From positions 1 through 11,333 of the forward strand of contig JAFLJU010000277.1 of assembly GCA_022712835.1 (NCBI GenBank): a DNA stretch of 11,333 nt, in the 5' to 3' direction. Below the pieces are notes generated by a model. It was given only the letters and a program-made list of their open reading frames with translations, was not told where the DNA came from and made no database searches. Source of the DNA: Desulfobacteraceae bacterium (GTDB taxonomy: Bacteria; Desulfobacterota; Desulfobacteria; Desulfobacterales; Desulfobacteraceae). The translations under genes were made by a program, and so were the position numbers. Each line of letters opens with the position of its first letter. Position 1 is the first letter of the stretch. Below, in pieces: positions 2,392 to 11,333 of the stretch.

Positions 2392-2473
2392 CAATTGGTT
2401 TGCTTTAACCGATTTGCTTTAACAGTTGGTTTACTTTATCAGTTGGTTTACTTTATCAAGGGGTCTGCTTTAC
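2392..2473. repeat. Degenerate 17-bp tandem repeat between convergent genes
   Basis: Two identical copies of cagttggtttactttat lie head to tail at 2423-2439 and 2440-2456. Related units flank them: caattggtttgctttaa (2392-2408), a shortened ccgatttgctttaa (2409-2422) and caaggggtctgctttac (2457-2473). The last unit contains the stop codon of thiC, read on the minus strand at 2472-2470. The array fills most of the gap between the phosphoesterase gene and thiC. Confidence 0.75.
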
Positions 2474-3753
2474 AGAAGCTCGCTCACCCGTTTCATGGCG
2501 CAGAAATCACCACACATGGTGCAGACACCTTTTTCCAAGGGCTGGGAGGACTCCTTGTATTCACGGGCTTTGCCCGGATCAATGGCTGCAGCAAACTGGC
2601 CTTCCCAGTCCAGCGCAACCCTTGCCCGGCTCATTGTCAGGTCTCTCTTTTCCACCCCGGGTATGCCCTTGGCAAGGTCTCCTGCATGGGCAGCTATTTT
2701 TGAGGCCATGATCCCTTCCTTGACATCTTCCAGGCTGGGGAGCCGCAAATGCTCCGCTGGCGTGACATAGCAAAGAAAATCCGCCCCGTGCATGGCGGCA
2801 AGCGCCCCGCCAATGGCAGAGGTGATATGGTCGTATCCCGGTGCAATATCGGTGACCAGAGGTCCCAATACATAAAAAGGGGCATTGTGACAAAGTTTTT
2901 TCTGGAGCTTCATGTTCATCTCCACCTCGTGGAGGGGGACATGGCCCGGGCCTTCGATCATGACCTGGACATTCTTGGCCCAGGCGCGTTTGGTCAGCTC
3001 TCCCAGGGTAATCAATTCCTGGATCTGGGGGGCATCGGTTGCATCCATGATGGAACCGGGTCTTAAGCCATCCCCAAGGCTGATGCAGACATCATGCTGT
3101 TCACAAATGGCAAGAAGTCGGTCAAAATGTTCGTAAAAAGGATTTTCATTTCCGGTTTTGGTCATCCATTCAAAGAGAATGGCCCCTCCCCGGCTGACAA
3201 TGCCGCAGAGCCTTGGGTTGTTTCGAATGCTCTGGACCGCTTGCTGGTTCAGGCCGGCATGGATGGTGATAAAATCAATCCCGTTCTCGGCATGGATTTC
3301 AACGGTCTTAAACCAATCTTCAATGGTTATTTCTTCCACGGGTTTTCCCGTGCGTGTCAGGGTGTCATAGATGGGCACACTACCAATCATAACCGGCACT
3401 TCACTGACCAGCCGTTTTCGAAATCCTTCGGTGTCCCCTGACACACTAAGGTCCATGATGGCATCGGCCTTGTATTCCAGGGCCAGCTTGGCCTTGTTCA
3501 TTTCCCCATCAAAAGAACAGACATCCTTTGACACGCCCAGGTTCACATTGATTTTTGTTTTAAGGCCTTCCCCAACGCCACCGGCTTTGAGGTTGAAATG
3601 ATTTTTATTGGCGGGAATGGCAATGATTCCACGGGCGACCTTGTCCAGAAGATCCTGGCGGGAGATGGCTTCAGCCTCGAGCACCTGCTCCATCTGTGGG
3701 GTAACAATTTTTTTTCTGGCTGCATCCATCTGGGTGGTATAGGCATCACTCAT
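2470..3753 (-). CDS. thiC: Phosphomethylpyrimidine (HMP-P) synthase
   Basis: This is a radical-SAM enzyme converting 5-aminoimidazole ribotide to the HMP-P pyrimidine of thiamin, 427 residues long, the short form without the N-terminal domain of E. coli ThiC. Family segments visible include MDLSVSGDT (100-108), SRGG (187-190), [16 protein letters not shown] (225-240), [10 protein letters not shown] (267-276), [14 protein letters not shown] (304-317) and [12 protein letters not shown] (328-339). The C-terminal cluster motif is CTMCGDFC (Cys411, Cys414, Cys418), that is CX2CX3C rather than the CX2CX4C of the E. coli and Caulobacter enzymes. It is the last gene of the TPP-regulated operon, and its ATG overlaps the thiE stop (ATGA, 3753-3750). 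A second ThiC-family gene lies at 10089, but this copy keeps the classical ThiC residues and the thiamin context. Confidence 0.95.
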
Positions 3754-4421
3754 TTGTCTTCTCCTAAAATCTTTTTGATCTCATTAATTCGTTCCTTAAT
3801 ATCATCAGCGCCAATGATTTCAGTCACCAGGCAGATGGTTTTGGCTCCCCGGGAGACCAACTCCTTAAGGTGATGACGTTTGATCCCACCAATGGCCACA
3901 AAGGGGATGGTGATATGTTTCACCACATACTCAAGGTAGTCAAATCCCACGGCATCACACACATCCGCCTTGGTCTGGGTGGTAAATATGGGGCCCACCC
4001 CTATATAATCCGCTCCATCTGCAACGGCTTTTTTCGCCTGGGCAGGGGTATGGGTGGAACATCCCACCCACATATCCGGGGCCAGTTTTTTCACTTCAGG
4101 AATGGGCAGGTCATCCTGGCCCTGGTGGACGCCATCGGCTCCCACCATCAAGGCAATGTCCAAAAAATCATTGACGATAAAAGGAACGCCCGCATCGGCT
4201 GTGATCTTCCGGATCTCCCGACACTCTTCCAACATGGCTTTCCTGCTCTTTTGATCTGATTTCTCCCGGTATTGAAGGAGATCTATTCCCCCCTCCACCA
4301 AAAGTCGTGCCGTCTCCACATTGGAGCGGCCCAGGGAAAATTTCTCTCCCAAAATTCCGTAAACTCCCTGGGGGAAAGTTGGTTTGGCCGCTTTTCCAGA
4401 CCCATGTATACGATTCTTCAT
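3750..4421 (-). CDS. thiE: Thiamin-phosphate synthase
   Basis: This 223-residue TIM-barrel enzyme joins HMP-pyrophosphate to thiazole phosphate carboxylate to give thiamin phosphate. ThiE motifs are present in order: LLQYREK (48-54), IVNDFLDIA (82-90), [13 protein letters not shown] (94-106, in place of the usual HLGQ/HVGQ), [10 protein letters not shown] (137-146) followed by a TTQTK loop, and IPFVAIGGI (172-180). About 16 residues precede the start of the barrel, slightly more than usual. The start overlaps the thiF stop as ATGA and the stop overlaps the thiC start the same way, so thiF, thiE and thiC are probably translationally coupled. No thiD is seen in the window, so the HMP-P kinase must be elsewhere or fused to another protein. 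Confidence 0.94.
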
Positions 4422-4957
4422 TTTCTTGACTCCTTAACCAATTTCAAAACGATTCCGGCCATTAAACTTGCCACCAGGCCAATTTTCGGCGGGAAAAGGG
4501 GCAGCTCCTCCATGTCGGAAACAAAATCCCCAACAATGTGACAATTGCCCAAATTTTTCACTCCCACTGTTTCCATTTCTTCTCCTGAAATGCCCGAGGC
4601 ACAAACCACCTGCTTGCCGGAATCTGCCAGTTCTTCTATGAGCATCTTTTTTGAGGCCTTGTTATCAAACCCTTCCACAACGATATCGCAGTCAAAAAAC
4701 ACCTTAAGGGCATCTTCTTGTTCCATGCGGCAATCAATGGTTTCTATCATCATATCCGGAAAGATCCCCAACAGGTTTTGTTTTAAGCAAAGGGTTTTAA
4801 GTTTACCTGCCTGGTCAATTGAATAAAATTGACGGTTTAGATTGGAAATTTCCACCCGGTCAAAATCCACTATTTTAAGATGGGGCAATCCTGCCTGGGC
4901 CAGGTGCCGGGCCACATTGGACCCGATTCCGCCGATTCCGGCGATTCCGATTTTCAT
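4418..4957 (-). CDS. thiF: Short ThiF-family sulfur-carrier adenylyltransferase
   Basis: This 179-residue E1-like protein is expected to adenylate the C-terminal glycine of ThiS so that sulfur can be loaded as a thiocarboxylate. It has the nucleotide-binding GIGGIGSN loop (7-14), the acidic DFDRVEISNLNRQFY segment (31-45) containing Asp33 and Arg42, and Asp98 in VEGFDN. It is much shorter than E. coli ThiF (about 250 residues). It lacks the paired CXXC zinc motifs and the C-terminal segment carrying the E. coli sulfur-transfer cysteine. This matches the short ThiF subfamily that I recall accompanying thiS-thiG-thiH in anaerobes. It starts one base after the thiH stop, with GGGAG about ten bases upstream. 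Confidence 0.88.
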   Translation of the reverse strand: MKIGIAGIGGIGSNVARHLAQAGLPHLKIVDFDRVEISNLNRQFYSIDQAGKLKTLCLKQNLLGIFPDMMIETIDCRMEQEDALKVFFDCDIVVEGFDNKASKKMLIEELADSGKQVVCASGISGEEMETVGVKNLGNCHIVGDFVSDMEELPLFPPKIGLVASLMAGIVLKLVKESRK

Positions 4958-4958
4958 A

Positions 4959-6077
4959 TCAAAAGATCTCCCAGTCTTTAAACACCGGCTGATACCCGCT
5001 GTCCTGGATCATTCGGGACACCTGGGCCACACTGCGGGTATCTGTCACCTCAAACTGGACCGTGGTGTCCTTTGTGTGAACGGCATACCCGCCCACATCG
5101 GTTTTGGATCCGGCTGAATATTTCGTGGCTCCCAAATGGATGAGTCGATCCCTGAACAGGGCAGACTCCCGTGTGGAGATATTGATGCCAAGTCTCGGCA
5201 TAAACAGGCGCCAGGCCAGCATACACTGGACAAATTTTTTGTCCGACAACAGATTTTTGGGTTCAATGCCGCCTTCTGCCTTGGTCATCCGGGGAAGGGA
5301 CAGGGAAACCTCCACATGGGGGAAACTCTGTTCCAGATATTTGGCGTGGACTCCGGCCATAAAGGCTTCTGTCCCTGGGTCCCCCAGCCCGAACAGGGCG
5401 CCGATATTCACGGCCCTAAACCCGGCACGGGCCCCCCGCTCCGGGGTCAAAAGCCTATATTCATAATCTGCTTTCTTCCCCTTGGGATGGACCTCTTTAT
5501 ATATTTTCTGATCATAGGTTTCCTGGTAAACCGTCAGGGAATCTGCCCCGGCAGCAGCCATCTCCCCATAGGCATCCTCGTCCATGGGGAACATTTCCAG
5601 GGCGATGGAGGAAAAATATTTTTTTAAGATTCCCATTGCAGCCGTTAGGTAGGACAAGGGGGTTTTGGCCGGTGCTTCTCCGGTGAGGACCAGGATGTGG
5701 CGGATGCCCATGTCAAAAATGGCCCGGGCCTCCTGTTCGATCTGATCCAGGGTCAACTGGGTTCGCTTAAAGTCTGTACTGCAATTAAACCCGCAATAGG
5801 TGCAGTGGTTGGAACAAAAATCCGAGATATACATGGGGGCGTACAGGCCAATGGTGCGCCCAAAATGTTGATGGGTGAGTCCTTGTGCCTTTTGGGCCAT
5901 GGGTTCCAGAAAAGGCTGCGCTGCCGGACTCAGGAGGGTCAGCAAATCATAGGGCTCCAGTCTGACCAGGGTGTCCACCCGGTTCAGTGTCCTTTGAACA
6001 TCTTCTGGCAGGATCGAATCAAAATGGGCTTTAAAATCAAATGATTCATATTCTTTGACCTGGTTAAAAAAGGACAT
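4959..6077 (-). CDS. thiH: 2-iminoacetate (dehydroglycine) synthase, radical SAM tyrosine lyase
   Basis: This 372-residue protein cleaves tyrosine to p-cresol and dehydroglycine, the glycine-derived piece of the thiazole ring. It belongs to the anaerobic route and replaces the oxygen-dependent glycine oxidase ThiO. The radical-SAM cluster motif is CSNHCTYC (Cys88, Cys92, Cys95), followed by GFNC. The length matches E. coli ThiH (377). ATG 6077 is chosen because the reverse strand reads AAGGGAG five bases upstream. The frame is open further upstream to 6152, but that extension lies inside thiG and has no ribosome site. thiH begins two bases after the thiG stop, and its ribosome site is made of the last thiG codons. 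Confidence 0.95.
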   Translation of the reverse strand: MSFFNQVKEYESFDFKAHFDSILPEDVQRTLNRVDTLVRLEPYDLLTLLSPAAQPFLEPMAQKAQGLTHQHFGRTIGLYAPMYISDFCSNHCTYCGFNCSTDFKRTQLTLDQIEQEARAIFDMGIRHILVLTGEAPAKTPLSYLTAAMGILKKYFSSIALEMFPMDEDAYGEMAAAGADSLTVYQETYDQKIYKEVHPKGKKADYEYRLLTPERGARAGFRAVNIGALFGLGDPGTEAFMAGVHAKYLEQSFPHVEVSLSLPRMTKAEGGIEPKNLLSDKKFVQCMLAWRLFMPRLGINISTRESALFRDRLIHLGATKYSAGSKTDVGGYAVHTKDTTVQFEVTDTRSVAQVSRMIQDSGYQPVFKDWEIF

Positions 6078-6079
6078 GG

Positions 6080-6853
6080 CTACTCCCTTAAAAATCCGGT
6101 TAAGGGAGAGGAGGCCGCCGCCAGACGATTTTTCCCGGCAAGATTGGCACAAAAAGCCATGCGGCCCGCCATGACTGCCATGGCAAAGGCTTTGCCCGCA
6201 AGAGCCGGATCCCCGCTTGTGGCAATGGCGGTATTGACCAGAACGGCATCGGCTCCCATTTCCATGGCTTCGGCTGCCTGGGATGGGCGCCCGATACCCG
6301 CATCCACCACAACCGGCAGTTTGCTGATCTCAATAATCCGTTCAATCATGGATTTCATCTCAAGCCCCCGGTTGGACCCGATGGGAGAGCCCAGGGGCAT
6401 GACAGCCGCCGCCCCTGCATCGTACAATTGCTGGGTAATGGTAAGGTCGGGCATCACATAGGGAAGGACGATAAAGCCTTCTTTTGCAAGAATCCGGGAA
6501 GCTTTGAGGGTCTCGTAATTGTCCGGCATCAGGTATTGCATGTCCGTGATCACCTCAATCTTGATAAAGTCTCCGCAACCGGCCTCCCTGGCTATTCTGG
6601 CAATTCGAACCGCCTCGTCGGCCGTTCTGGCACCCGAGGTGTTGGGCAGGAGGGTCACACTATCAGGGATATGGCTAAGAATATTTCCCTGGTCTGCTGT
6701 GGGATCCACCCGGCGCAGGGCCACGGTGATGATCTCGGATCCGCTTGCCTCAAGCATGGGGGCGATCAGGGTTTTGGAAGCAAATTTTCCCGTGCCGGTC
6801 AAAAGCCGGCTTGAAAAGGTTTTATTGCCAAGGGTTAATAAATCTTTTGTCAT
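6080..6853 (-). CDS. thiG: Thiazole synthase
   Basis: This 257-residue TIM-barrel protein condenses deoxyxylulose 5-phosphate, dehydroglycine and the sulfur of ThiS thiocarboxylate into thiazole phosphate carboxylate. The N-terminal SRLLTGTGKF (15-24), VALRRVD (44-50) and LLPNTSGARTADEAV (68-82) blocks are typical. Lys98 in FIKIEVI is the expected Schiff-base lysine. MPLGSPIGSNRGL and VVVDAGIGRPSQAAEAMEMGADAV form the phosphate-binding end of the barrel. It starts three bases after the thiS stop, behind a very strong GGAGGAGG ribosome site. Confidence 0.96.
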   Translation of the reverse strand: MTKDLLTLGNKTFSSRLLTGTGKFASKTLIAPMLEASGSEIITVALRRVDPTADQGNILSHIPDSVTLLPNTSGARTADEAVRIARIAREAGCGDFIKIEVITDMQYLMPDNYETLKASRILAKEGFIVLPYVMPDLTITQQLYDAGAAAVMPLGSPIGSNRGLEMKSMIERIIEISKLPVVVDAGIGRPSQAAEAMEMGADAVLVNTAIATSGDPALAGKAFAMAVMAGRMAFCANLAGKNRLAAASSPLTGFLRE

Positions 6854-6856
6854 GGT

Positions 6857-7054
6857 TCATCCTCCTCCCACAAAGCTTAGCAGCTCTATGTTGTCTTTAT
6901 CTTTGATGAGGAGATGGCTCCAGAATTCCTGTTTGACCACCTCAAAATTGTATTCAGCAATCAGTGAGGTTGGGTTTAGGCCCTGTTTTTCCACAAGATC
7001 CATCAAGGAACGACAATGGGTTTCCACAAGCTTTCCATTCAGGTTGATTTTCAT
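6857..7054 (-). CDS. thiS: ThiS sulfur carrier protein
   Basis: This 65-residue ubiquitin-like protein carries sulfur as a C-terminal thiocarboxylate to ThiG. It begins MKINLNGK, contains the LIAEYN segment and ends in FVGGG. The Gly-Gly end is the site adenylated by ThiF. ATG 7054 is preceded by GGAG with a five-base spacer and gives the normal family length. A longer open frame back to 7102 would run into the riboswitch leader and is not used. It is the first gene after the TPP riboswitch, about 98 bases downstream. Its three final GGA codons overlap the thiG ribosome site. Confidence 0.95.
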   Translation of the reverse strand: MKINLNGKLVETHCRSLMDLVEKQGLNPTSLIAEYNFEVVKQEFWSHLLIKDKDNIELLSFVGGG

Positions 7055-7151
7055 CACATCTCCAAAAAACAAAACATTAATGGTGTTGTCCTGAACGGGC
7101 ACAAATTGTATCGACGGAAAAAAAGAATGGAATAAACGACTTGCAAACGAA

Positions 7152-7240
7152 CACCACTTTCCCTACGCCGGTACTAACCGTATCAGGTTCTAAGGGTTGA
7201 AGTTTGCCAACTTCTCTCAGCTAATAAAAGCACCCCCAGT
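7152..7240 (-). promoter_or_regulatory. TPP riboswitch (THI element)
   Basis: Read on the minus strand, the leader contains the THI-box blocks in order: ACTGGGGGTGC (7240-7230), GCTGAGA (7221-7215), ACCCTTAGAACCTGAT (7197-7182) and GGTTAGTACC followed by GGCGTAGGGAAAGTGG (7179-7154). The closing P1 stem is CACT with AGTG. It starts a few bases after the expected transcription start and precedes thiS. TPP binding should lower expression of all six genes. I see no clear intrinsic terminator before thiS. A T7 run on the minus strand (7125-7119) lacks an obvious stem, so control may be translational. Confidence 0.96.
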
Positions 7241-7252
7241 GAACAGATTGAG

Positions 7253-7281
7253 ATGATAGACCAATTTTCCCTGGCAGTCAA
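7253..7281 (-). promoter_or_regulatory. Sigma-70 promoter of the thiamin operon
   Basis: On the minus strand, TTGACT (7281-7276) and TATCAT (7258-7253) are 17 bases apart, five of six matches in each box. Transcription should begin near 7246, just upstream of the first riboswitch helix, so position and spacing support each other. Confidence 0.8.
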
Positions 7282-7326
7282 TCTGAAATATCACGCAATT
7301 GGCAGGGCCACATACAGGCCCCACAA

Positions 7327-7366
7327 AAAATAGCCCCCATGCCGGGCTCGGCATGGGGGCTATTTT
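7327..7366 (-). terminator. Strong intrinsic terminator between divergent units
   Basis: Positions 7327-7343 pair perfectly with 7350-7366, giving a 17-bp stem around a six-base loop (GGGCTC). On the minus strand the GC-rich stem runs into TTTTTTG, six Ts; on the plus strand only four. It is therefore strongest for transcripts travelling right to left. It lies 46 bases upstream of the thi -35 box and would stop minus-strand transcripts arriving from the cyclase gene. Confidence 0.85.
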
Positions 7367-7388
7367 AAAGGTGTGAACAGTAAAATAG

Positions 7389-7402
7389 TTAGTTGCGACT
7401 AA
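7389..7402. promoter_or_regulatory. Small palindrome upstream of the HD-GYP promoter, possible operator
   Basis: TTAGT, TGCG, ACTAA form a perfect five-base inverted repeat centred 14 bases upstream of the TTGACA box. Its position suits a regulator binding site, but I cannot assign it to a known factor. Confidence 0.35.
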
Positions 7403-7408
7403 TTTGTG

Positions 7409-7437
7409 TTGACAGAAAAACATTTTCTCGCTATAAG
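7409..7437 (+). promoter_or_regulatory. Sigma-70 promoter of the HD-GYP gene
   Basis: TTGACA (7409-7414) and TATAAG (7432-7437) are 17 bases apart, close to consensus. The start of transcription would be near 7444, giving a leader of about 35 bases before the GTG at 7480. Confidence 0.8.
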
Positions 7438-7479
7438 CCACAGAATTAAAAAATGACCCAATTTTAAGAGGAAAATTAA

Positions 7480-8154
7480 GTGGATAACAAAAAAAAATCC
7501 TGCGTTAGATGTCTTTACCAGAATCCATCGGCAATCATGGCAACAACAATTTTGCACCAGTTTTCAGAATCCCTGGGAGCTGCAATCGATGCAAAGGATC
7601 CCTTTACAAGCCTTCACTCAGAAGAGGTTGCAGAAATAGCCCATTCCATTGCCCTTGCCATGGGAATTGACCCTGGAGAGGCTGATATTATTCATATCGC
7701 CGGACATCTTCATGATATTGGAAAAATAGGAGTTCCGGATGCAATACTAAAAAAGCCGGGCGCATTGAGTGATGAAGAATGGCAGTCTATCAAAAAGCAT
7801 CCGGACACCGGTGCAAATATTCTTTGTCCAGTTGCATCCCTCATGGAAAGCGGAGTTGTGGAGATGGTCCGGCACCACCATGAACGATATGATGGTAAAG
7901 GATATCCCGGGGGACTGAAAGGCGAGGCGATCCCCTTGGGTGCAAGGATAATTGCCCTGGCCGACAGCCTTTCTGCCATATTACAAACCCGCCCCTACAG
8001 GCCTTCCAGGGATTTTGACTGGGCACTTGCTGAAATCGTTGACTGCTCAGGGACCCAGTTTGATCCGAATGTTGTAACCGCTTTCATGGGTATTTCCGCA
8101 GAGATCTGTTCAATTCTAAAATTTTTAAGCCCGGAACAGGACAAAATTGCTTAA
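7480..8154 (+). CDS. Stand-alone HD-GYP domain protein, putative cyclic-dinucleotide phosphodiesterase
   Basis: This 224-residue cytoplasmic protein consists almost entirely of one HD-GYP domain, a family that hydrolyses cyclic di-GMP or related nucleotides. Metal-binding candidates are His46, His78-Asp79 in LHDIGKIG, His107, His133-His134 and Asp162. The signature HHERYDGKGYPGGLKGE (133-149) is intact. The usual ADxxDAL motif reads ADSLSAI, with Ser165 replacing the second aspartate, and the following SDRPYR reads QTRPYR. There is no receiver, PAS or membrane segment. The N-terminus has a CVRC pair (Cys8, Cys11) of unknown use. Start GTG 7480 is chosen for AGAGG eight bases upstream. It has its own promoter and converges on the cyclase gene. 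The exact substrate, and whether it is active, cannot be told from sequence. Confidence 0.88.
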   Translation: MDNKKKSCVRCLYQNPSAIMATTILHQFSESLGAAIDAKDPFTSLHSEEVAEIAHSIALAMGIDPGEADIIHIAGHLHDIGKIGVPDAILKKPGALSDEEWQSIKKHPDTGANILCPVASLMESGVVEMVRHHHERYDGKGYPGGLKGEAIPLGARIIALADSLSAILQTRPYRPSRDFDWALAEIVDCSGTQFDPNVVTAFMGISAEICSILKFLSPEQDKIA

Positions 8155-8165
8155 AATAATGGGAT

Positions 8166-9719
8166 TCATTTCTTTTCATCGCTCAAAGAAAAAACCCGGA
8201 TGGGGTCTGGCCTACCCTTCACCTTGATCTCCGGCATGGGCTGGAAGTCATAGTGATCCGACAGAAGGGTTTGAACGGCCTCACTGACCAGGATGTCGGT
8301 CTTAAATTCCTTGGTCAGTCCCTGGATTCTTGAGGCCAGGTTCACCGTGTCACCGATCAATGAATAGGCAGATCGATCTTCACTGCCGATATTGGCCGCC
8401 AGAACATATCCGGTATGGATTCCAACCCCGTGGGCGATGGGGGCAATCCCCTCCCCCGCAAGCCGCTTATTGAGCTGTGTCAGGCGGTGGCGCATGGCAA
8501 GGGCGGTCTTAACGGCTGAAAGTTCATGATTCGCCTGGTATATGGGGGCACCGAACACCGCCTCCACTTCATCTCCGATAAACTGAAGGATCAATCCCTG
8601 GTTCTCCTTGATGGCACCGGCCATTTCATTGAGATAGGCATTCAAGACATAAATTAATTCTTTGGGTGGAGTGACTGCCACCAGGGGGGTAAAATTCCTC
8701 AAATCCGCGAATAAAATGGTGGCCTCCTTGAATTCTCCGTCCAGGGGTACCCTGCCGCTTAGAATTTCATCCCGGATTCTTGAATCCACATATTTACCAA
8801 AGGTATCCTTGATAAACTCCCGCTCCCTCAAACCCTGGGTCATGGCATTGAGCGTTTCTCCTGCAGCCCCGATTTCATCATTGCTGAACACCTTTGCTTT
8901 CTCTGAAAAATCACCCTTTCTCACATGGTCCATGACCCGGATAATTTCTTTTATGGGCCGTCTAGTATGATGGGCAACCAGCCAGGACAGGACAATGGCC
9001 ACCCCCATGAACAGGATGCTTTCTTTGGTAATGATATCTTCCATGCGGCTGACCAGCATGAGCAGGGTCATTTCATCCATCATCTGCATCTGTTTAAACC
9101 TATGCATGGTCATGTGTATAACGGCTAATGGCACCACGGACACGGCAAAGATCAGGGCAGCAAATCTCACACTTAAACTGATGACTTTAACCCCCTGTAC
9201 CGTTGACAGATCTCCTTCCGGGAAAAACAAGGGGACCAGGGAGTGCTGGGACATATGCTCCACCCAGAAAAAGGCCAGGGTCACGGTGATCATCCCGCTG
9301 GCAATACCAACCCCGCTGGCAGGAGATCCTGCCAGCCAGAAAAGGATGAACCCGATGCTCCAGACAATCATATCCAGAATAACAATCATATAGGGTTCAT
9401 TCAATAACCTGCGGCGGGCGTTTTCCAGCAAAACAGGATCCTGATCCCGGCCCTGATAAAAGGATTTCAGGCAGTGCCGGATGGGCCTTTCATACCAGAT
9501 GGTGATCAATGACATCACCACTACACAAATGGAACTATAGAAAATATCCAGGTAATAGACTGTACTTAAAATATCCAGGGAGGCATCCCCGGCCCTGTTA
9601 ATAAACATAATACGGGTCAGCCAGTCGCCAAGGAAAAGAGCAGCCATATTGCCCAGGAGCACGGCATTGGAAATATAAAAATAGTGGACACGGCTTTTGA
9701 TCTGTTGCGTGGTTCCCAT
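8166..9719 (-). CDS. Membrane class III adenylate/guanylate cyclase with HAMP domain
   Basis: This 517-residue protein has about six membrane helices (near 14-38, 54-76, 110-130, 136-154, 183-205 and 233-250). A HAMP linker follows (about 250-300, RRPIKEI to FSNDEIGAAGETLNAM), then a class III cyclase catalytic domain (about 330-500). Catalytic residues are visible: metal-binding Asp339 (LFADL) and Asp383 (IGDE), and Asn460 and Arg464 in GDTVNLASR. The two purine-selecting positions are not the usual lysine and aspartate/threonine but Gln379 and Ser453, so ATP specificity is likely but not certain. It should act as a membrane receptor-cyclase making cAMP or cGMP in the cytoplasm; no defined sensor domain is recognised. 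The reverse strand reads AAAGGAACCT directly before the ATG. The stop is 11 bases from the HD-GYP stop with no terminator between. Confidence 0.92.
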   Translation of the reverse strand: MGTTQQIKSRVHYFYISNAVLLGNMAALFLGDWLTRIMFINRAGDASLDILSTVYYLDIFYSSICVVVMSLITIWYERPIRHCLKSFYQGRDQDPVLLENARRRLLNEPYMIVILDMIVWSIGFILFWLAGSPASGVGIASGMITVTLAFFWVEHMSQHSLVPLFFPEGDLSTVQGVKVISLSVRFAALIFAVSVVPLAVIHMTMHRFKQMQMMDEMTLLMLVSRMEDIITKESILFMGVAIVLSWLVAHHTRRPIKEIIRVMDHVRKGDFSEKAKVFSNDEIGAAGETLNAMTQGLREREFIKDTFGKYVDSRIRDEILSGRVPLDGEFKEATILFADLRNFTPLVAVTPPKELIYVLNAYLNEMAGAIKENQGLILQFIGDEVEAVFGAPIYQANHELSAVKTALAMRHRLTQLNKRLAGEGIAPIAHGVGIHTGYVLAANIGSEDRSAYSLIGDTVNLASRIQGLTKEFKTDILVSEAVQTLLSDHYDFQPMPEIKVKGRPDPIRVFSLSDEKK

Positions 9720-9793
9720 AGGTTCCTTTCCTTTCTTTTACATGTTCTTAACCCAAGACTATTGATCAAGAACCTATATTTGTAAAGAAAATA

Positions 9794-9823
9794 TTGACTT
9801 GGCCCCTACCTGTCATGTAAATA
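9794..9823 (+). promoter_or_regulatory. Possible promoter for the cobalamin-riboswitch transcript
   Basis: TTGACT (9794-9799) matches the -35 box well. The best-placed -10 is TAAATA (9818-9823) after 18 bases and is weak. CATAAT (9831-9836) is a better -10 but lacks a partner box. One of these should drive the riboswitch that begins at about 9847. The rest of 9720-9793 is AT-rich, and I see no confident promoter for the divergent cyclase gene there. Confidence 0.4.
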
Positions 9824-9846
9824 TGGTTTTCATAATTTTAGGGTAG

Positions 9847-9990
9847 TGTCTGGTCCACGGAACACGGTGAAACTCCGTGACGGTCCCGCCGCTGTAATCG
9901 GAAATATTTATTTTTTGTTAGTGCCACTGTTCACACGGGAAGGCCATGAAAAATAACTTTAATGCCGAAAGTCAGAAGACGAACCAGACA
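9847..9990 (+). promoter_or_regulatory. Cobalamin (B12) riboswitch
   Basis: The closing stem is perfect over eight pairs: TGTCTGGT (9847-9854) with ACCAGACA (9983-9990). Inside are the conserved blocks in order: ACGGTGAAACTCCGT, GGTCCCGCCGCTGTAA (9882-9897), GCCACTG (9923-9929), CGGGAAGGCC (9936-9945) and the B12-box AGTCAGAAGACGAACC (9970-9985). It leads into a terminator and a ThiC-family gene. Cobalamin binding is expected to switch that gene off, as for other B12 synthesis genes. Confidence 0.96.
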
Positions 9991-10020
9991 TTCTTGATTC
10001 TGTAAGACTCGATGGTAAAG

Positions 10021-10056
10021 GGTTTTGTAAGATAATTATTCTTGCAAAACCTTTTT
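10021..10056 (+). terminator. Riboswitch-controlled intrinsic terminator
   Basis: GGTTTTGTAAGA (10021-10032) pairs with TCTTGCAAAACC (10040-10051) with one G-U wobble, around a seven-base loop, and a run of five Ts (10052-10056) follows directly. Placed between the cobalamin aptamer and the start codon, it is the likely expression platform: stopping transcription when cobalamin is bound. Confidence 0.85.
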
Positions 10057-10088
10057 GTGTTTTGCCAGAACCGCATAGCGAGGAAACT

Positions 10089-11333
10089 ATGACAACACAG
10101 CTAGAGTCCGCCCGTCAGGGCATCATTACCGAAGAAATGAAAATTGTGGCCAAATCAGAAGGCCTTGCCGAAAGCTTCATCCTGGCCCATGTGGCTAAGG
10201 GGGAGATCGTGATCCCCTGCAACCCCAATCGGAAAAATCAGAAAATTGTGGGTATTGGTACAGGCCTTCGGACCAAGGTCAATGCCTCCATCGGTACCTC
10301 ATCTGATATCTGTGATATTGACCTGGAAGTTCAAAAAGCAAAAGCCGCCGAAGAAGAAGGGGCAGACACCCTCATGGAATTGTCCGCAGACGGAGACCTG
10401 GACCTGGTTCGGCGAACCGTGCTTGCCAACACCAATCTTCCCGTGGGTAATGTGCCTTTGTACCAGGCCTTCAAAGAGACCATCCGAAAATATAAAAATC
10501 CGGCCAAGCTGGACCCTGAATATTTGTTTGAGCTCATTGAACGACAATTAGAAGACGGGTTGAGCTTCATGGCCATCCATTGCGGCATCAACTTATACAC
10601 CATTGAACGTTTGAGAAAACAAGGATTTCGCTACGGTGGCCTGGCCTCCAAGGGTGGCACCTATATGGTGGCCTGGATGGATATCAATAAACGAGAGAAC
10701 CCCTTATACGAGCAGTTTGACAGGGTATGTGATCTCATGAAAAAATATGATGCAGTTCTTTCTTTGGGCAACGGTATCCGGGCCGGGGCCATCCATGACA
10801 GCCATGACCGGGCCCAGATGGCTGAAATGATTATCAACTGCGAGCTGGCGGAAATTGGCCGGGCCAAAGGGTGCCAGATGATGGTAGAAGGTCCGGGGCA
10901 TGTCCCCTTAGACGAAATTGAGGGCAATATCATGCTGGAAAAACGCATGTCCGGCAATGCTCCCTATTATGTGCTGGGCCCCATCCCCTGCGACACAGGG
11001 GCAGGCTATGACCATATTTCCGCTGCCATTGGTGCCGCCAGTTCCGCAAGGTTCGGTGCAGATCTTGTCTGTTATATCACCCCTGCCGAACACCTGGCCC
11101 TGCCCGATGTCAATGATGTCAGGGAGGGGGTTCGGGCCACCCGGCTTGCCGCTCGCATAGGCGATATCTCTAAATATCCGGACCGACGGGAGAATGAAAA
11201 ACAGGCGGCCATGGCAAGGCGGGACATGCGGTGGGATGACCTTGAAAAACACCTGCTCTTCCCAAAAGTCGCACGACAGATAAGGGAAGAACGGGCACCA
11301 GAGCAAAAAGACACCTGCACCATGTGTGGGGAT
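10089..11333 (+). CDS. bzaF: ThiC paralogue, 5-hydroxybenzimidazole synthase (3' end outside window)
   Basis: The 415 codons present encode a ThiC-family radical-SAM protein with no stop before the window ends. Cys410 and Cys413 begin the cluster motif CTMCGD, so by comparison with ThiC here only about 10-15 residues are missing. BzaF converts 5-aminoimidazole ribotide, the substrate of ThiC, to 5-hydroxybenzimidazole, the first step of anaerobic synthesis of the B12 lower ligand. The assignment rests on the cobalamin riboswitch upstream and on coherent departures from ThiC: SKGG for SRGG (187-190), GNGIRAG for GDGLRPG (227-233), HDSHD for MDATD (236-240) and HCGIN for HAGLN. GAGGA sits just upstream of ATG 10089. 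It could instead be one half of a BzaA/BzaB pair; the neighbouring gene that would decide this lies outside the window. A plain second thiC is less likely. Confidence 0.87.
   Translation, partial: MTTQLESARQGIITEEMKIVAKSEGLAESFILAHVAKGEIVIPCNPNRKNQKIVGIGTGLRTKVNASIGTSSDICDIDLEVQKAKAAEEEGADTLMELSADGDLDLVRRTVLANTNLPVGNVPLYQAFKETIRKYKNPAKLDPEYLFELIERQLEDGLSFMAIHCGINLYTIERLRKQGFRYGGLASKGGTYMVAWMDINKRENPLYEQFDRVCDLMKKYDAVLSLGNGIRAGAIHDSHDRAQMAEMIINCELAEIGRAKGCQMMVEGPGHVPLDEIEGNIMLEKRMSGNAPYYVLGPIPCDTGAGYDHISAAIGAASSARFGADLVCYITPAEHLALPDVNDVREGVRATRLAARIGDISKYPDRRENEKQAAMARRDMRWDDLEKHLLFPKVARQIREERAPEQKDTCTMCGD

Follow-up and report, generated by a model that had tools for sequence, protein, structure and literature searches.

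BzaF of Geobacter sulfurreducens, the closest described relative of the enzyme considered here, is reported to make 5-hydroxybenzimidazole from 5-aminoimidazole ribotide (AIR) (PMC7726332), and BzaAB has been reported in Seep-SRB1a (PMC10553843), so that finding genes for the lower ligand in a sulfate reducer is in itself no novelty. The AIR chemistry that links thiamin synthesis to that of the B12 lower ligand was likewise known beforehand; a first-pass annotation of the DNA analyzed here named AIR as the meeting point of the two, which for BzaF was already in print. The DNA, hereafter the window, is a stretch of 11,333 nucleotides from a Desulfobacteraceae bacterium (assembly GCA_022712835.1, contig JAFLJU010000277.1), and it holds a further instance of the known BzaF-type enzyme. 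Its sequence makes it highly probable that AIR is shared by a ThiC and a BzaF encoded in one locus, each behind its own vitamin riboswitch, with BzaF feeding the lower ligand of a cobamide.

Scans with Rfam, NCBIfam and Pfam confirmed two riboswitches and two ThiC-family genes on opposite strands, in agreement with the first-pass annotation. On the minus strand, a thiamin pyrophosphate (TPP) riboswitch aptamer (RF00059, 7247-7142, 74.6 bits against a gathering threshold of 54.3) precedes six thi genes. The last of them, thiC (2470..3753), encodes the synthase of the thiamin pyrimidine 4-amino-5-hydroxymethyl-2-methylpyrimidine phosphate (HMP-P) and matches NF009895 at 631 bits and TIGR00190 at 590 bits. 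On the plus strand, a cobalamin riboswitch aptamer (RF00174, 9834-10002, 80.7 bits, gathering threshold 31.5) precedes a PF01964 gene starting at ATG 10089 (10089..11333), which tree and residue signature assign to bzaF, the 5-hydroxybenzimidazole synthase type. The 3' end of bzaF lies outside the window, its reading frame being still open at 11333. The two riboswitches are 2.6 kb apart, and 6.3 kb separate thiC (ending at 3753) from bzaF.

The 10089 protein is of the BzaF type by sequence comparison and groups outside ThiC, as had been claimed; a position inside true ThiC was not found. A 50-row tree divides 27 BzaF rows, including the Geobacter protein P0294 and the NCBI-named BzaF P0252, from 23 ThiC rows; this split has 100/100 support and recurs in 100% of the 200 bootstrap replicates, and a quick 108-row tree (49 BzaF, 59 ThiC) shows it too. 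Both trees are unrooted; in the larger one a few sequences, among them that of E. coli ThiC, sit on long branches, and the 50-row tree, built without E. coli, leaves the split unchanged. The product of 2470-3753 falls on the ThiC side of both trees. The window BzaF is 66.9% identical to P0294 and 67.7% to P0252, compared with 41.2% to the window ThiC. Of 169 homologues drawn from loci, 110 are closer to the window BzaF, with which they share 62-100% identity; the other 59, at 35-50% identity to BzaF, are closer to ThiC. The 10089 protein has a match in 131 of the 148 genomes of a phylum sample; 31 of the 148 have one at 62-88% identity, and the remaining matches, among the matches listed, reach at most 51%. 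Together with the residue signature described below, this placement indicates that the enzyme very probably produces the lower base of a B12 cofactor.

It is very unlikely that the gene is instead a second thiC, an isozyme retained for thiamin synthesis. Its product matches PF01964 and passes two ThiC equivalog models of NCBIfam (NF009895, 548 bits, cutoff 410; TIGR00190, 500 bits, cutoff 460), and database names for such proteins are mostly ThiC. However, the same two models also pass 10/10 hand-picked BzaF-type proteins, including a Geobacter protein and P0252, so that ThiC model names are not decisive here. A second ThiC was rejected because the protein lies in a separate clade in both trees and has residues swapped at the AIR and S-adenosylmethionine (SAM) contacts; the gene also stands behind a cobalamin riboswitch, with cobT following in relatives, rather than with a TPP riboswitch and thi genes. 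In the protein searches, the BzaF-type rows that carry a name are nearly all listed as ThiC or as phosphomethylpyrimidine synthase, and a few, such as P0153 and P0252, are named 5-hydroxybenzimidazole synthase.

The gene could also be the BzaA or BzaB of the two-gene enzyme form rather than a single-gene BzaF, since these proteins share a superfamily and the BzaB model TIGR04386 matches at 490 bits. That score falls far below the cutoff of 700, which rules out BzaB. No second gene of this type adjoins bzaF in 80 loci, and none of 44 genomes exceeds two full-length PF01964 matches (fragments occur besides in G006, G032, G025 and G038). A BzaA or BzaB identity is therefore extremely improbable, and the single-gene BzaF remains the preferred assignment.

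To describe the division between the two families at residue level, the alignment columns were mapped to Arabidopsis thaliana ThiC (AtThiC) by counting on the Protein Data Bank (PDB) alignment, on which Tyr286, His322, Ser342, Arg343 and Asp383 fit consistently. Fifteen columns separate the 110 BzaF rows from the 59 ThiC rows, nearly all of the latter from one phylum, at >93% on each side. Three substrate or cofactor contacts of ThiC are swapped in the window BzaF (AtThiC numbering, BzaF numbering in brackets): Asn228 to Ser (Ser67), Arg343 to Lys (Lys188) and Asp383 to Asn (Asn228). Ser and Asn occur in 110/110 BzaF rows and Lys in 107/110, whereas Asn, Arg and Asp are each found in 59/59 ThiC rows, the window ThiC included at the Asp383 place. 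All three swaps are present in 345/345 proteins from three protein searches; because these are the best matches of BzaF-type queries, and 14 repeat a locus protein, they enlarge the sample without being random. This residue rule may well already be in print. The three-cysteine motif of the iron-sulfur cluster, close to the C-terminus, offers no such division. CX2CX3C is carried by 109/110 locus rows of the BzaF type (the window protein, cut after the first two Cys of the motif by the window end, is the other) and by 344/345 search proteins; it is also found in 38/39 ThiC rows that are uncut at the motif, E. coli ThiC having CX2CX4C. Being common to both sets, it cannot separate them.

The published accounts of ThiC place the three swapped residues at the active site. 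In AtThiC, Asn228 is described as contacting the ribose hydroxyls of AIR, Asp383 its N3, and Arg343 the adenine N7 of S-adenosylhomocysteine, while the Arg343 backbone holds the AIR phosphate (PMC4389238). Asp383 has been proposed to protonate AIR N3, letting the sugar radical break into the imidazole ring; its change to Ala is reported to abolish HMP-P formation, and Asn at the same place to restore activity partly (PMC11117688). The swaps around AIR and SAM may have a part in dividing BzaF from ThiC chemistry. An amide at the 383 place would spare the imidazole, so that a benzene ring could be built onto it from the sugar carbons. Whether the three changes together constitute the switch between the two AIR rearrangements is a more speculative matter, and we offer the idea tentatively, as the less probable outcome. 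Asn at 383 alone does not abolish ThiC chemistry, which counts against the simplest form of such a switch; the candidate is the combination of the changes. The window BzaF retains Cys474, on which Caulobacter ThiC depends for the methyl group of the pyrimidine.

The genomic context of bzaF provides further evidence. Besides the window, 7/7 close loci, L015 and 13/13 further loci have a cobalamin riboswitch ahead of bzaF, as do 12 of 29 fetched phylum-sample loci (G010 and G034, of the 31 genomes, are outside this set). The predicted expression platform is an intrinsic terminator 3' of the aptamer (10017..10055, plus strand), with a 16-pair stem and a T-rich tail. Over 12 leaders its helix pairs in 94.2% of cells (shuffles 92.5; 3/500 as high), a figure biased upward because the window sequence itself served to define the helix; five cells are changed on both sides (shuffles 1.9; 4/500 as high), and a strand slid out of register pairs at no more than 68%. 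The whole cobalamin leader folds with a z of -3.2. By analogy with known cobalamin riboswitches, cobalamin would switch bzaF off. In the TPP leader of the window, no terminator was found between the aptamer and thiS, only a weak fold, and TPP control is likely exerted at translation. Upstream of the TPP aptamer, a GC-rich hairpin with a T run (7326-7362, minus strand) is perhaps a terminator that blocks read-through.

Because the window ends before the next gene, what follows bzaF was judged from relatives; a run of thiamin genes in place of benzimidazole genes, which would have spoken against BzaF, was not found there. Of the 71 loci whose DNA extends at least 2 kb beyond bzaF, 42 have a cobT (>55% identity) within 1 kb downstream of it. 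In the closest relatives the two genes nearly touch; in L002, where bzaF ends at 11326 and cobT starts at 11331, CobT matches TIGR03160 at 405 bits (cutoff 319). The order bzaF-cobT-bzaC-bzaD-bzaE is found in L042, L047 and L051, and bzaF-bzaC-bzaD-bzaE in L129. Three scanned BzaC proteins are O-methyltransferases fused to DUF2284, and two scanned BzaD proteins match TIGR04385 at 424 and 386 bits (cutoff 450). The gene after bzaD encodes another B12-binding radical SAM protein, which carries the BzaE label by position only.

In the wider clade of the window, bzaC, bzaD and bzaE lie together and away from the bzaF locus in 9/9 genomes (L145-L153), which had been chosen for having a BzaD-like match. 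Among them are G001, G002, G003, G004 and G007; the BzaF proteins of these five share 92-97% identity with the window BzaF. L147 comes from Desulfospira joergensenii (G010), which has bzaF-cobT in L010. Six of the nine loci have a cobalamin riboswitch upstream of bzaCDE, which in L152 stands directly before bzaC; none was found before bzaCDE in L148 and L153, where little upstream DNA is available, or in L149 (6.5 kb upstream). Between the riboswitch and bzaC, L145 (6857-8461, minus strand) and L147 (4907-6466, plus strand) carry a sodium:solute symporter (PF00474), possibly a precursor importer. Beside bzaCDE and the riboswitch, L152 has a small gene (7264-7884, minus strand) with a BzaC-like stretch, DUF2284-like by reading, near genes that read as apparent corrinoid methyltransferases. 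G007 encodes a second BzaD-like protein (C360:4768-6015, 407 bits) in addition to the one in its bzaCDE cluster.

Judged by the examples of E. limosum and A. woodii described in PMC8123684, the combination of bzaF and bzaCDE predicts 5,6-dimethylbenzimidazole. Since several close relatives have bzaC-bzaD-bzaE, true B12 (cobalamin) is a likely end product, and the genes of these relatives suggest that the window organism likely makes it without oxygen. An alternative end product, 5-methylbenzimidazole from BzaF, BzaC and BzaE without BzaD, was considered on account of the BzaD scores below cutoff; it was set aside, as a BzaD-like gene is present in the clusters together with another gene for a B12-binding radical SAM protein.

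Several observations weigh against the reading of the locus as ThiC and BzaF drawing on AIR behind separate riboswitches. NCBIfam model naming labels the 10089 protein ThiC, and its PDB matches are ThiC proteins only. The protein trees were built without reference BzaA and BzaB sequences and represent the G. sulfurreducens BzaF (GSU3005) through Geobacter relatives. The partial activity retained by AtThiC with Asp383 changed to Asn (PMC11117688) belongs here as well. With regard to context, no cobalamin riboswitch is seen ahead of bzaF in 17 of the 29 loci from the phylum sample, and no cobT was found adjoining it in 29 of the 71 loci with room, including the close locus L011. BzaD-like matches, found in 15/44 genomes, score 374-424 bits and thus all fall under the cutoff of 450; in the other 29 of these 44 genomes, which were reached through loci and include many drafts, no BzaD-like match was found. 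At the leader, only three pairs of the terminator are changed on both sides, a count not above shuffles (119/500 as high), and the leader of L003 has no good terminator hairpin. A competing upstream helix (columns 19-25/35-41 of A1) is paired in 98.8% of cells with covariation not beyond shuffles, and an antiterminator is for that reason only a suggestion.

Taken with the evidence above, the shared-AIR arrangement would work as follows. ThiC, in the operon behind the TPP riboswitch, would convert AIR to HMP-P, and BzaF, behind the cobalamin riboswitch, would convert it to 5-hydroxybenzimidazole. CobT, encoded after bzaF in relatives, would activate this base for attachment to the corrinoid. 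When cobamide is abundant, the aptamer would favor the terminator at 10017-10055, and transcription would stop before bzaF-cobT. A bzaC-bzaD-bzaE set elsewhere in the genome, as in several relatives, would methylate the base to 5,6-dimethylbenzimidazole.

The proximity of the thi genes to bzaF is a feature of one lineage. Among 50 loci whose upstream DNA spans 5.5 kb or more, 5 have genes for thiamin synthesis upstream of bzaF, as do 3 of the 30 loci with a shorter upstream stretch, and all eight of these loci fall, with the window, within one clade of 21 rows (96/94). Five members of this clade with sufficient DNA (L008, L010, L011, L013 and L017) lack the arrangement, and the tree requires a minimum of 4 changes. 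On a genome scale, 5/44 genomes have thiC and bzaF on the same contig and no more than 10 kb apart, an undercount given the drafts among them. The pairing looks like an inherited neighborhood undergoing loss rather than a conserved unit.

The first-pass annotation had offered the close pairing as a possible trace of thiC duplication, and this part of its interpretation is not supported. For bzaF to have arisen locally from the neighboring thiC, with the pairing as a footprint, speak the common family, the 6.3 kb between the genes, and a distant lineage (G172; L132, 7001-9716) in which bzaF and thiC are divergent and ~0.2 kb apart. However, forcing the window ThiC and BzaF together as a sister pair costs 618.6 log-likelihood units, and under the model used the approximately unbiased (AU) test of the tree rejects a local or recent duplication (p-AU 7.6e-46). 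The two G172 proteins also fall on opposite sides of the tree, the two genes are within 10 kb of each other in no more than the 5/44 genomes counted above, BzaF forms one clade across the phylum sample, and the pairing is lineage-specific. The chance of a local origin is practically negligible; an ancient shared origin of the ThiC and BzaF families is to be expected.

Selection for closeness, as a help in balancing two drains on AIR, is improbable but deserves consideration. Genes for thiamin synthesis are found upstream of bzaF in 8/80 relatives as well as in the window, and near bzaF also in G172 and, downstream, in L058. Against this, the upstream form is limited to the one clade, with the absences and changes counted above; L002 and L006 retain thiC without thiSGHFE; and the genes in between encode a cyclase and an HD protein, with no shared promoter or RNA seen. 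The thi and bzaF loci would, on the preferred account, have become neighbors in one Desulfobacteraceae clade, with neither gene made from the other there.

Individual relatives show further variation. No Rfam match was found in the G172 region. In L058, genes resembling thiH and thiG (41% and 53% identical to their window counterparts) are located at 15255-17230, 5-7 kb downstream of bzaF, a case seen without a systematic downstream scan. L002 (5615-7124) and L006 (4619-5280) have a TPP riboswitch followed by thiC without thiSGHFE; in L002 a short stretch ahead of thiC seems to be a remnant of the beginning of thiS, and thiC of L006, from a draft metagenome-assembled genome, appears to be in several pieces. 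The ThiC proteins of L143 and L144 (G037 and G039) are very divergent (47% identity to the window ThiC), and L143 still has a TPP riboswitch before thiC.

The remaining genes of the minus-strand operon follow the TPP element in the order thiS-thiG-thiH-thiF-thiE-thiC, from 7054 down to 2470. They are thiS for the sulfur carrier (6857..7054; TIGR01683, 55 bits, cutoff 37; PF02597), thiG for thiazole synthase (6080..6853; PF05690, 333 bits), thiH for 2-iminoacetate synthase (4959..6077; TIGR02351, 484 bits, cutoff 380), thiF for the ThiS adenylyltransferase (4418..4957; NF006395, 179 bits, cutoff 159) and thiE for thiamin phosphate synthase (3750..4421; TIGR00693, 196 bits, cutoff 145). For thiS, ATG 7054 is a likelier start than GTG 7102 of the open reading frame list, and for thiH ATG 6077 is likelier than TTG 6152. 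Between the two riboswitches lie an HD-domain (HD_5) gene (7480..8154, plus strand; PF13487, 125.6 bits) and, divergent from bzaF, a gene for a HAMP and adenylate/guanylate cyclase protein (8166..9719, minus strand; PF00211, PF00672); both probably belong to neither pathway. Farther off, and with no relation to the finding, the plus strand encodes a CoA-transferase-like protein (65-847, a weak match) and a calcineurin-like phosphoesterase (932-2356).

What the analysis contributes is the residue rule, which at the Asp383 place tells BzaF-type and ThiC-type proteins apart in every sequence examined, and the evidence that BzaF-type proteins are frequently misnamed ThiC in public databases. Because the ThiC models accept every BzaF-type protein tried, genome-based predictions of thiamin synthesis and of the B12 lower ligand are affected. 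Some sulfate reducers are likely anaerobic makers of true B12 through the BzaF and BzaCDE route. The ThiC and BzaF of the window form a matched pair of enzymes in which to study the routing of one substrate into two vitamins, and, should the residue-switch reading hold, a natural test set for it.

Comparison with known systems sets the window among these enzymes. The G. sulfurreducens BzaF resembles that of the window in family and residue signature, as judged through the Geobacter relatives P0263, P0294 and P0307, and in its association with cobT, whereas the window bzaF has its own cobalamin riboswitch and lies near a thi operon. The account in PMC8123684 describes G. sulfurreducens with bzaF and cobT only, while several relatives of the window add bzaC-bzaD-bzaE. 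The known cluster of the BzaA and BzaB type has the same order after the first step as L042, L047 and L051; it differs in that a single BzaF here replaces BzaA and BzaB, and in that the close relatives of the window hold the methylating genes elsewhere. ThiC itself (AtThiC, Caulobacter crescentus ThiC and the E. coli enzyme) shares the family of the window BzaF, in which AtThiC Tyr286, His322, Ser342, Arg386 and Glu422 and Caulobacter Cys474 are kept; the two differ at AtThiC Asn228 (Ser), Arg343 (Lys) and Asp383 (Asn) and stand on opposite sides of the tree. The bzaF cluster of Geotalea daltonii, as described in PMC13119186, is similar to the present locus in that its bzaF stands with cobamide genes and close to a cobalamin riboswitch; there the B12 riboswitch precedes cbiMNQO, for a cobalt transporter, whereas in the window it stands directly before bzaF.

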